Source: Deltaproteobacteria bacterium GWC2_65_14
GTDB lineage: Bacteria > Desulfobacterota > Deferrimicrobia > Deferrimicrobiales > Deferrimicrobiaceae
Direction: 5' to 3'
DNA length: 45,805 nt
Assembly (NCBI GenBank): GCA_001797615.1
Contig: MGPV01000066.1
Span: 1 to 45,805, forward strand
Part shown: piece after piece, positions 37,304-42,030 of the stretch
Position numbering within the stretch: the first letter of the stretch is position 1
How the letters are laid out: the number at the start of each line of letters is the position of its first letter
The notes under the pieces: generated by a model
What the model was told of the DNA's origin: nothing
Databases searched by the model: none
What the model saw: the letters and a program-made list of their open reading frames with translations, nothing else
Program-made: the position numbers and the translations under genes

Positions 37304-38224
37304 TCACCGCACGGGACGAAGCCAGGAGAGAAGGACCGACCCCCCGAGCACCGCCACGACGACCAGGAGGGAGAGCTCGATCGGGATATGGACCCATTCC
37401 GAGATCACCATCTTCACCCCGACGAAGAGGAGCACGACCCCCAGCCCGACCTTGAGGTAGCGGAACTTCCCCATGACGGAGGCCAGCAGGAAGTAGAACG
37501 AGCGCAGCCCCAGGATCGCGAAGATGTTCGAGGTGTAGACGATGAACGGGTCCTTCGTCACGGCGAAGATCGCGGGGATCGAGTCGACGGCGAACACCAC
37601 GTCGGTCGCCTCGACCACCAGCAGCACGGGGAGAAGCGCCGTCGCGACCCGCCGCCCGTTCCTCCGGGTGATGAACTTGGCTCCGTCGAACTCCGGAATG
37701 CTGGGGATCACCTTCCCGAAGAGCTTGAGGACGGGGTTCCTTTCGGGGTGGACCTCGGTCCCGCGGGAGAAGAGGATCTTCACGCCGGTGTAGACCAGGA
37801 ACCCCCCGAAGACGAAGATGATCCAGTGGAAGGACTGCAACAGGGCCGCCCCGAGCAGGATGAAGACCGCCCGCATGACCTGCGCCCCGAGAATCCCCCA
37901 GAAGAGGACCCGGTGCTGGTAGGCCTTCGGGACGCCGAAGGTGGAGAAGATCAGGATGAAGACGAAGAGGTTGTCGACCGACAGGGCGAGCTCGATCAGG
38001 TACCCGGTGAGGAACTCCAGCCCCCGCTGCGGGCCGAATCCCCGGTAGACGCCGAGGTTGAAGAGCAGCGCGAGCGAGACCCAGCCGACGCTCCAGGCGA
38101 GCGCCTCCCGGTGGCTGACCTCGTGCGCCCTCCGGTGGAAGACGAGCAGGTCGAGCGCGAGGAGCGCGATGACGGCCAGCGTGAAGCCCGCCCACAGCAG
38201 CGGGGTCCCGACGGTTTCCAGCAA
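37304..38224 (-). CDS. TerC family integral membrane protein (Alx-like)
   Basis: 306 residues from the TTG at 38224, which is preceded by GGGAGGAG; the open frame continues 54 codons upstream, but that part is Pro/Arg-rich and not membrane-like. About nine helices are visible. Signature stretches are LTGYLIELALSVDNLFVFIL with conserved Asp and Asn, VLFWGILGAQVMRAVFIL, VEATDVVFAVDSIPAIFAVT and NIFAILGLRSFYFLLASVM. TerC/Alx proteins are inner-membrane proteins linked to manganese export and tellurite or alkaline-pH response. In several bacteria related genes have a manganese riboswitch; I see no clear one in the ~200 bp upstream. The TTG start is the weakest part of the call. Confidence 0.9.
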   Translation of the reverse strand: MLETVGTPLLWAGFTLAVIALLALDLLVFHRRAHEVSHREALAWSVGWVSLALLFNLGVYRGFGPQRGLEFLTGYLIELALSVDNLFVFILIFSTFGVPKAYQHRVLFWGILGAQVMRAVFILLGAALLQSFHWIIFVFGGFLVYTGVKILFSRGTEVHPERNPVLKLFGKVIPSIPEFDGAKFITRRNGRRVATALLPVLLVVEATDVVFAVDSIPAIFAVTKDPFIVYTSNIFAILGLRSFYFLLASVMGKFRYLKVGLGVVLLFVGVKMVISEWVHIPIELSLLVVVAVLGGSVLLSWLRPVR

Positions 38225-38422
38225 CGGCTCCTCCCGGGCGGCCCCCGGGGGGCCGGAAATGGAACGGGTACGATGATACCCCCCGCGTGCGTTTTGCGGA
38301 AGCGGGAAGAGGGCCTCTCCCCTCTCCTGCCGCCGGAGCCGGATGCGCGGGCCGGGGGATCGTGAGAGGATATCGGTCTCTCCCACGAGGATCGCCGGGA
38401 GGAATCCTGATGAAGGTCCGGG

Positions 38423-39073
38423 TTACTTCCCTCCGCGGATCGTCGCAAGCGTCGCGAGGATCTCCTCGATATCCATCCGGACCGTGTGGTCCGGGTCCGC
38501 CACTCCCGCGCGGACGATCCCCTGCCCGTCCAGCACGTACGTGGCCGGCACGGGCAGCTCCCACCTTCCCTCCCCGTTGTACTTGTCCAGTTGGATGCCG
38601 AACTTGTCCCGGTAGAGTTCCTTGATCTCGGCCGAAACGGCGAACCAGAGCCGGTACTTCTTGAGCACTTCCCCGGTGCCGTCGCTTACGACATCGATCG
38701 GGATCTTGTGCTTCTCCGCCATCGTCAGGGTGTGGTCGGGAAGTTCCGGGCTGATCGCGATCAGATCCGCCCCGAGCTCCTTGATCCGCGGCAACGCCTT
38801 CGCCAGAGCTGCCAGCTCCAGGTTGCAGTACGGTCACCAGACCCCCCGGTAGAAGGAGAGGACCGCCGGCCCCGCGGCGAGCCGGTCGGCCAGACGGACC
38901 ATCTTCCCTGTCTGGTTCGGGAGGGTGAAGTCGGGCGCCCGCTCTCCGACCGAAAGCCCCGATGCCCCGGAGTTCCGGACGCTTTCGACCCCCCGCTGCA
39001 TCTTCGCCGCGATCTCCGGCGGCAGCGTCGGCCTGCCCGCCTTGAACTGCGCGATCTGTTCGCTGAGCTTCAT
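38423..39073 (-). CDS. Peroxiredoxin-like selenoprotein (UxxC), UGA at codon 80 read as selenocysteine
   Basis: The frame from ATG 39073 (preceded by GGGAGG) runs to 38423 with a single in-frame TGA at 38836-38834. Read as selenocysteine it gives 216 residues. The N-terminal part has [31 protein letters not shown] and [11 protein letters not shown]80 then starts the active site U-P-Y-C (C83), and [20 protein letters not shown] and [20 protein letters not shown] continue the AhpC/TSA thioredoxin fold without a break. Cys-containing relatives carry CPYC here. A SECIS-like hairpin follows at the right distance (38803-38821). The enzyme would reduce peroxides or act as a thiol oxidoreductase. An ordinary gene caller would report two fragments split at the TGA. 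Confidence 0.85.
38803..38836 (-). promoter_or_regulatory. Bacterial SECIS-like element directly after the UGA codon
   Basis: On the mRNA, the UGA (38836-38834) is followed by 12 bases and then a hairpin: CTGGAGCT (38821-38814), loop GGC (38813-38811), AGCTCTGG (38810-38803). Eight pairs form, two of them G-U. The loop begins 21 bases after the UGA and its first base is G. The bacterial SECIS rule asks for a short stem, a 3-14 base loop with G at one of the first two positions, and 16-37 bases from the UGA; all are met. Confidence 0.75.
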
Positions 39074-39191
39074 CCTGCAACCTCCCTTCGGTTCATGCGG
39101 TTCCATGCATGGGATGCCCGGCCCCGCGGGTCGATTCCCCTTTTCCACGGCGGAATCCCGCAATCTCCTGCAGGCGTCTAAAGATACAGGG

Positions 39192-39221
39192 CGATTTGCG
39201 GGAAAATCGTTATGTTACAAT
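39192..39221 (+). promoter_or_regulatory. Putative acnA promoter with dyad
   Basis: TACAAT (39216-39221) lies 28 bases before the ATG at 39250. Upstream, CGATTT (39192-39197) and AAATCG (39204-39209) form a dyad with a six-base centre over the -35 position, a possible operator. No good -35 box is visible. The stretch is AT-rich compared with its flanks. Confidence 0.45.
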
Positions 39222-39249
39222 ATCGTACCACCGGACGAGGGAGGGGGCC

Positions 39250-42030
39250 ATGGGCAAGACGGCAGGAGGATCTTTCGGCGCGAAAACACGGAAGACGATC
39301 GGCGGGAAACCGTACGAGATCTTTTCCCTTCCCGCCCTGGAACGGCGCGGGGTCGGCAAGGTCTCCCGGCTGCCGAGATCGATCAAGGTGCTGCTGGAGA
39401 ACCTGCTGCGCCACGAGGACGGCGTCTCCGTGACGGCGGAGGATATCGAATCGGTCGCACGATGGTCCCCGAAGGCCGCCTCCGGGAAGGAGATCGCCTT
39501 CCGCCCGGCCCGGATCCTCCTTCAGGATTTCACCGGAGTCCCGGCGCTGGTCGACCTCGCCGCCATGCGCGACGCCGCAAAGGAGATGGGGGCCGACCCG
39601 AAGAAGATCAACCCCCTCATGCCGGCGGACCTGGTGATCGACCACTCGGTCCAGGTGGACCGGTTCGGCTCCACCGGCTCGTTTCTGGCCAACGTCGGGC
39701 GGGAGATGGAGCGAAACGGCGAACGGTACGCCTTTTTACGGTGGGGGAAGGAGTCCTTCCGCAACTTCCGCGTGGTCCCTCCGGGGACCGGAATCTGCCA
39801 CCAGGTCAACCTCGAGTACCTGGCGCCGGTGGTCTTCCGGAAGAAGGTCGGGCGCGTCACCCAGGCCTTCCCCGACACGCTGGTCGGGACCGACTCCCAC
39901 ACCCCGATGATCAACGGGCTGGGGGTGGTCGGCTGGGGGGTCGGCGGGATCGAGGCGGAGGCGGCGATGCTAGGCCAGCCGCTCTCGATGCTCACGCCGC
40001 AGGTGGTGGGGTTCAAGCTCTCCGGGTCGCTTCCCCCGGGGGCGACGGCGACCGACCTGGTGCTGACCGTGACGCAGATGCTGCGGGCCAAGGGGGTCGT
40101 CGGGAAGTTCGTCGAGTTCTACGGGAAGGGGCTTTCCTCCCTCTCGCTGCCCGACCGGGCGACGATCTCGAACATGTCGCCGGAGTACGGGGCGACGATC
40201 GGCTTTTTCCCGGTCGATCGGGAAACGCTCTCCTACCTGCTCTTCACCGGCCGCAGCAGGGAGCAGGTCCGGGTGGTGGAGGCCTACTGCAAGGCGCAGG
40301 GGCTCTTCCGCACCGACGACTCGCCGGACCCGGTCTTCTCGGACACCCTGTCGCTCGACCTCTCCACCGTGCAGGCGAGTCTGGCCGGCCCGAAGCGCCC
40401 CCAGGACCGGGTGCCGCTCGCGGAGGCGAAGGCCTCCTTCCGGGAGGTGCTCGCCGGGCTGGGGAAGGAACCGGCTCCCCCCGCTCCGGAGAACCATGGC
40501 CGCTGGCACGCGGAGGGTGGATGCACCCCGGAAGGGGCCTCGCTGCCCGCGGAGAACGCGGGGGAACCGGGCGGGGTCCCGGTGACTCACGCGGGGACTT
40601 CATTCACCCTGCACGACGGGTCGGTGGTGATCGCGGCGATCACCAGCTGCACGAACACCTCCAACCCGGCGGTGATGATCGGCGCGGGGCTGCTGGCGAA
40701 GAAAGCGGTCGAGCGGGGGCTCAGATCGAAGCCGTGGGTCAAGACCAGTCTCGCCCCCGGGTCGAAGGTCGTGACCCGCTACCTCGACCGCGCGGGGCTC
40801 ACCCCCTACCTCGAGGGGCTCGGGTTCCACCTGGTGGGGTACGGCTGCACCACCTGTATCGGCAACTCGGGACCGCTGCCCAAGCCGATCGAGGAAGGGA
40901 TCCGCAAGGGAAATCTCTTCGTCGCCTCCGTGCTGTCGGGAAACCGCAACTTCGAGGGACGGATCCACCCGATGAGCCGGGCGAACTACCTCGCCTCCCC
41001 GCCGCTGGTGGTGGCTTACGCCCTCGCGGGGAGGATGGACGTCGACCTGTACAACGAACCGGTGGGGCTGGACCCGAACGGTGAGCCGGTCTTCCTGAAG
41101 GAGCTCTGGCCCTCCCCCAGGGAGATCGAGGAGACGGTGCGGGCCTCGGTCGGCGCCGACATGTTCCGGAAGGAGTATGCGCAGGTGTTCGAGGGGGACG
41201 AGGAGTGGAAGAGCCTCCCGGTCCCCAAATCGGAGACCTTCGCCTGGGACCCGGACTCGACCTACGTCAAGCACCCGCCCTTCTTCGAGGGGCTCTCCCC
41301 TTCTCCGGAGCCGCTGAAGGATCTTTCCGGCCTGCGTGTACTGGCGATCCTGGGCGACTCGGTGACCACCGACCATATCTCCCCCGCGGGGGACATCGCC
41401 GAGGAGAGCCCCGCCGGGAAATACCTGCGGGAGCACGGGATCGAGAAGCGCGACTTCAACTCCTACGGAAGCCGCCGGGGGAACCACGAGGTGATGATGC
41501 GGGGGACCTTCGCGAACATCCGGCTGCGGAACCTGCTCGTCCCGGGCACCGAAGGGGGGTGGACGGCCCGTCTGCCGGACGGGGAGACGACGACGATCTA
41601 CGACGCGGCGATGCAGTATGCCTCCGAAGGGGTGCCCCTGATGATCCTCGCCGGAAAGGAATACGGCTCCGGATCCTCGCGCGACTGGGCGGCCAAGGGG
41701 CCTCGGCTCCTCGGCGTCCAGGCGGTGCTGGCGGAGAGTTTCGAGCGGATCCACCGGAGCAACCTGGTCGGGATGGGGATCCTCCCGCTCCAGTTCGAGC
41801 CGGGGGAGACCCGGGAGACGCTGGGGCTTTCCGGGAAGGAGCTCTTCGCGGTGGAAGGGATCGCCGGAGGGATCGCCCCGCGGAAGAAGCTGACCGTCCG
41901 GGTCACGGGGAATGGAGCGGAGAAGCGCTTCACCGCGGTCGCCCGGATCGACACGCCGGAGGAGGTGCACTACTACGGCCACGGCGGGATCCTGCAGTAC
42001 GTCCTGCGCCGTCTGGCGGGGGCTCGATGA
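39250..42030 (+). CDS. acnA: Aconitate hydratase, AcnA/IRP type
   Basis: 926 residues from the ATG at 39250, preceded by GAGGGAGGG; the frame is open from 39109 but the earlier part is non-coding. The [4Fe-4S] ligands lie in [10 protein letters not shown] and in [11 protein letters not shown]. Other family segments are [82 protein letters not shown] and [20 protein letters not shown]. It isomerises citrate and isocitrate in the TCA cycle. A poorly conserved, Pro/Glu-rich linker sits between roughly residues 410 and 450, ahead of the swivel region. The gene stands alone, divergent from the selenoprotein gene, and ends before an inverted-repeat element. Confidence 0.96.

Follow-up and report, generated by a model that had tools for sequence, protein, structure and literature searches.

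A conserved in-frame TGA very probably encodes selenocysteine in a peroxiredoxin-like UxxC protein of an uncultured deltaproteobacterial lineage

Results

Gene organization at the locus

The minus strand between positions 39073 and 38423 of the window, i.e., of the entire 45,805-nucleotide stretch analyzed here, carries a single reading frame with TAA as terminal codon and a sole in-frame TGA at codon 80 (38836-38834). The frame holds no further stop besides this TGA. A preceding sequence-only reading had described two halves of one protein sharing a frame and split only by a TGA at the first position of a CxxC motif, and the translation agrees with this description. The features of the locus are as follows.

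38423..39073, minus strand: predicted UxxC peroxiredoxin-like selenoprotein gene, 216 codons including Sec80, ATG start, TAA stop, TGA translated as U
38834..38836, minus strand: in-frame TGA, putative Sec80, first position of U-P-Y-C; TGA in orthologues, Cys in distant relatives
38803..38821, minus strand: candidate bacterial SECIS (bSECIS) hairpin CTGGAGCT-GGC-AGCTCTGG, assigned by fold, synonymous-site invariance, a compensatory outermost pair and the rules of PMC13188914; 5' arm 38821-38814 (CTGGAGCT), loop 38813-38811 (GGC), 3' arm 38810-38803 (AGCTCTGG)
39081..39087, minus strand: likely Shine-Dalgarno sequence AGGGAGG, 7 nt upstream of the ATG, read from the sequence
37304..38386 (listed ORF), minus strand: TerC-family membrane protein, downstream neighbour in the same direction (PF03741, 180 bits)
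39109..42030 (listed ORF), plus strand: aconitate hydratase, divergent neighbour (PF00330, 547 bits)

For both neighbours the true start probably lies inside the listed ORF, at about 38224 for the TerC-family gene and at an ATG at about 39250 for the aconitate hydratase gene. The TerC-family gene is linked to the selenoprotein gene by co-directional adjacency. The aconitate hydratase gene adjoins the selenoprotein gene only in the closest relatives (synteny at loci L002-L004 and L083-L085). Standard gene calling would yield a 79-residue stub plus a fragment from the selenoprotein gene.

Protein family, motif, and fold

The joined protein of 216 residues matched the AhpC-TSA family PF00578 with 101.9 bits (gathering score 26) over residues 42-189, so that the match runs across TGA80. 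The AhpC/TSA assignment of the sequence-only reading thus stands with PF00578 as the best family, whereas the AhpC-TSA_2 family also named there (PF13911) reached only 16.5 bits, below its Pfam gathering cut-off of 27. An AlphaFold model, in which Sec was read as Cys (33 alignment rows), had a mean pLDDT of 93.6 and a pTM of 0.91. The solved folds closest to it are peroxiredoxins of the BcpB, Bcp4, AhpE, and PrxQ type, and ResA thiol-disulfide oxidoreductases are found within the top 50. The product is accordingly predicted to adopt a thioredoxin/peroxiredoxin-type fold of the AhpC/TSA group with an N-terminal helical extension.

The protein contains the UxxC motif U80-P-Y-C83. When the protein is aligned to the Aeropyrum Bcp structure, which also provided the motif register for evaluating the classical peroxiredoxin motif TxxC/TxxU, C83 falls on the position of the peroxidatic Cys and Sec80 three residues earlier, which argues for a thioredoxin-like (TRX-like) centre and not for the TxxU type found in Sec peroxiredoxins. 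TxxC/TxxU itself was not found in this register, the first motif residue being Sec, or Cys in relatives. As judged from this alignment, Sec80 stands in for the leading Cys of a TRX-like CxxC and occupies the thioredoxin-like position rather than the peroxidatic one.

Work on the Sargasso Sea in 2005 already described Sec-containing peroxiredoxin-like UxxC proteins (PMC1088965); they were counted as Prx-like 1 in the GOS data (PMC2398784), and a further paper lists them for Geobacter, Syntrophus, and Desulfotalea (PMC1794560). The present protein, with PF00578 above cut-off and Sec as first residue of a TRX-like UxxC, shares the features of this peroxiredoxin-like thiol:disulfide oxidoreductase or Prx-like 1 type (PMC1088965, PMC2398784, PMC1794560, PMC13188914). 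It is likened to the Prx-like UxxC class (type sequence WP_010940744.1), which is listed for several deltaproteobacteria, by PF00578 and UxxC on the basis of the class descriptions only. Since such selenoproteins have been known since 2005, it adds to an established type. A 2026 review also contains a peroxiredoxin-like selenoprotein entry, cd02970 (PMC13188914), compared here by description, the motif of which is UxxS as opposed to UPYC. Sec peroxiredoxins of the TxxU type share the domain family PF00578 and the fold, but carry Sec as the second, peroxidatic motif residue, in contrast to Sec first and Cys second in the present protein. Similarity to SelL-related redox proteins (NF040769) was restricted to a weak match of the thioredoxin domain with 29.9 bits, far below the NCBIfam cut-off of 120 bits for membership. 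Plasmid homologues of the UPYC protein bear the name "peroxiredoxin-like family protein".

Conservation of the in-frame TGA

When 59 genomes, namely 58 relatives plus that of the window, were searched with tolerance for stops, nine orthologues with 65-85% identity emerged, all within the window's own family and with matches covering residues 1-215. Together with the window's copy, these ten family copies represent seven genera. Each of the nine carries exactly one TGA, located at the same codon as TGA80; three of them (L002-L004) are also found in public MAG contigs named "Deltaproteobacteria bacterium". Extension of the search to 395 genomes of the phylum, likewise reading through stops and thus allowing a fair Sec/Cys count, yielded 17 more loci with roughly 36-45% identity in other families, 16 with TGA and one with TGT at this codon. 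UPYC is the usual motif of the Sec copies, with UPFC in L123 and L128 and UVFC in L129. One genome (G395) harbors two Sec copies of the UxxC family (L113 and L129), and in L119 (genome G342) the genome-search match contained two TGAs and the tblastn alignment one.

More distant relatives carry TGC or TGT within the motif FYRGxWCPYCNLEL, as expected from the earlier proposal that Cys homologues read CPYC. They belong to the cyanobacteria, Bacillota, Actinomycetota, Pseudomonadota, and others, in a sample leaning toward Cys because one of the search peptides contained WCPYC. For protein alignment, ranges were shortened and some rows dropped, since chosen Cys loci contained a stop.

Nei-Gojobori dN/dS ratios against the orthologues ranged from 0.20 to 0.47 in the part before the TGA and from 0.12 to 0.27 in the part after it. 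These low values on either side argue that both halves of the gene are under purifying selection, and, with no additional stop present, the gene does not have the appearance of a decayed pseudogene.

A SECIS-type hairpin behind the TGA

The hairpin consists of an 8-bp stem, two pairs of which are G-U, and has a minimum free energy (MFE) of -8.7 kcal/mol. The 8-bp stem and the G-first loop of three nucleotides had been noticed before; the distance of 20 bases after the TGA given at that time holds for the start of the loop, whereas the stem already begins after 12 nt. The published bacterial SECIS model demands a loop of 3-9 nt, a stem of 4-16 bp, a G within the first two loop bases, a distance of 16-37 nt from the UGA, and an MFE of at most -7.5 (PMC13188914). 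With GGC, 8 bp, 20 nt, and -8.7, the hairpin lies within all of these constraints, in line with the earlier statement on distance and loop rule. In the GC-rich window, 23 of 785 TGAs (2.9%) are followed by a rule-obeying hairpin of at least 8 bp, and when the peptide was recoded at random with synonymous codons, the 8-bp stem arose in 0.23% of the draws. By itself, the hairpin is weak evidence for Sec. An Rfam scan of the window gave no match at gathering scores, so that Rfam neither backs nor opposes the SECIS assignment.

What decides the matter is the comparison with relatives, namely the TGA in every family orthologue combined with the invariance of the hairpin on nucleotide level. Codons 83-90 are identical in the ten family copies even at synonymous sites, with all eight amino acid-invariant degenerate codons unchanged. 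They form the longest run without synonymous change; elsewhere in the gene, 16% of such codons are fixed. Third-position diversity over nine codons is likewise lowest at the hairpin (0.05, with 0.20 in the next separate window; ten family copies). The outermost pair, compared over twelve distinct Sec sequences, reads C-G six times and G-C four times, a compensatory change in distant copies, and this is the only pair of the covariation set with two-sided changes. Within this set 93.8% of the cells were paired compared with 33-49% when the register was slid, a test that is conditional because rows had been picked for copies with a hairpin in this register. In six other Sec copies the hairpin is shifted downstream (GAGCTGC...GCAGCTC-like), and L114 has a different one. 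Folding energies were -8.7 kcal/mol or lower in all 25 non-window Sec copies, compared with -3.8 in the sole Cys copy of the phylum search.

Selenocysteine machinery of the genome

The genome holds selA (476 bits), selB (292 bits, 643 codons in an uninterrupted open frame), the tRNA-Sec gene selC (74 bits, anticodon tca), and two selD genes (393 and 326 bits), each with its own in-frame TGA at SSCAG-U. The presence of SelA, SelB, and SelC had been postulated from the window, and the possibility of a genome devoid of Sec machinery is thereby removed. The selD genes are situated at C52:815-1738 (L108) and C62:52685-53494 (L109), with short-loop hairpins after the TGA. On family level, SelA was found in 21 of 24 genomes, including all ten bearing the selenoprotein gene. 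Among the distant genomes, 15 have the Sec form; every one of these encodes selB, and 14 encode selA (in one case a contig-edge fragment); the sole genome lacking selA is 82% complete.

Within genus g6 (G005, G012, G017, G020, and G023), the SelA match falls into two adjacent pieces of one open frame, pointing to an inserted stretch in the C-terminal portion of SelA. A second AhpC/TSA protein of the window's own genome (L133; C33:1746-2048, minus strand) likewise has a UxxC motif, FHRHLG-U-LPC, the U of which is an in-frame TGA at 1695-1693; it is probably another AhpC-TSA-type selenoprotein.

Discussion

Decoding of TGA80 and proposed function

The conserved TGA, the SECIS features, the Sec machinery, and purifying selection together render it very probable that TGA80 is decoded as selenocysteine, giving a Sec-containing peroxiredoxin-like thiol oxidoreductase with the motif U80-P-Y-C83, as the sequence-only reading had inferred. 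What the computation shows is the conservation of the Sec codon, the features of a SECIS, the presence of the Sec genes, and the class of fold. Judging from the sequence, the hairpin just behind the UGA would recruit SelB with Sec-tRNA-Sec (anticodon UCA) once codon 80 is reached, and Sec would be inserted in place of termination in a SelB-dependent manner. Sec80-Pro-Tyr-Cys83 would then act like a thioredoxin CxxC: the selenolate of Sec80 would be the nucleophile attacking a peroxide or disulfide, Cys83 the resolving residue forming a selenenylsulfide, and a thioredoxin-type reductant would regenerate the Sec80-Cys83 centre.

Compatible with Sec decoding is the possibility that the protein functions mainly as a peroxidase rather than as a thiol:disulfide oxidoreductase. 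The peroxiredoxins among the nearest solved folds and the alignment of C83 with the peroxidatic Cys speak in favor of it; the replacement of the peroxiredoxin TxxC signature by a TRX-like UxxC, as well as matches to ResA-type oxidoreductases by both sequence and fold, weigh against it. We regard the two functions as almost balanced, with the peroxidase slightly behind.

Sec insertion at TGA80 has also to be held against other fates of this codon. In other organisms, Cys is known to be inserted at Sec UGA codons when selenium is short, and the homologues of the present protein have Cys at this position, both of which would fit a read-through of the UGA in which a suppressor tRNA or a mischarged tRNA-Sec inserts Cys or Trp. 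Yet the full Sec machinery is encoded, the selD genes themselves have TGA at the Sec site, and only SelB-dependent decoding would call for a hairpin of the SECIS type; we therefore consider such read-through very improbable. Even less credit can be given to the TGA having arisen by faulty sequencing or assembly, or through a nonsense mutation that recently hit a Cys gene. Although the window stems from a draft assembly of 67 contigs, and TGC and TGT are each one base away from TGA, the same TGA recurs in nine further family genomes and at 16 loci from other families of the phylum and is therefore not a sequencing error, which had already been thought unlikely. In addition, selection downstream of the TGA and the synonymous-site freeze at the hairpin contradict a pseudogene, and on account of the independent conserved copies this explanation was rejected. 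Equally negligible are two separate proteins, a 79-residue one terminated by the TGA and a 123-residue one restarted at a TTG (38794), as the mechanical ORF list (38423-38794, TTG start) would have it: the TTG is missing in two of ten copies, one of them without any start codon within 30 codons from the TGA, the break would cut the active site and the thioredoxin fold, and neither the conserved hairpin nor the exact coincidence of the TGA with the Cys site would be explained.

Sec and Cys forms within the family

The ten Sec copies of the family formed one fully supported clade in a maximum-likelihood tree built from 104 rows, for which the Cys rows were sampled with bias. This clade groups with twelve Cys relatives (97% support) and lies apart from the remaining Sec groups. 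The tree requires five or more Sec/Cys changes, in whichever direction, two of them forced by well-supported branches. L116 (genome G221, with selA and selB present) is a Cys copy (TGT) that lacks the hairpin; its long branch lies next to Sec copies, and a Sec-to-Cys change is possible there. We tentatively suggest, with confidence somewhat short of even, that the FYRGxW-U-PYC proteins constitute Sec-using branches of a peroxiredoxin-like family in this phylum that are uncatalogued as a selenoprotein subfamily of their own, with several Sec/Cys exchanges and with SECIS elements in at least two registers within the conserved NLEL helix codons.

The general picture of selenoproteins is unchanged by the present protein, which adds a well-supported selenoprotein to the genomes of an uncultured lineage. 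As a group with interleaved Sec and Cys forms, its family is suited for tests of when bacteria gain from Sec over Cys.
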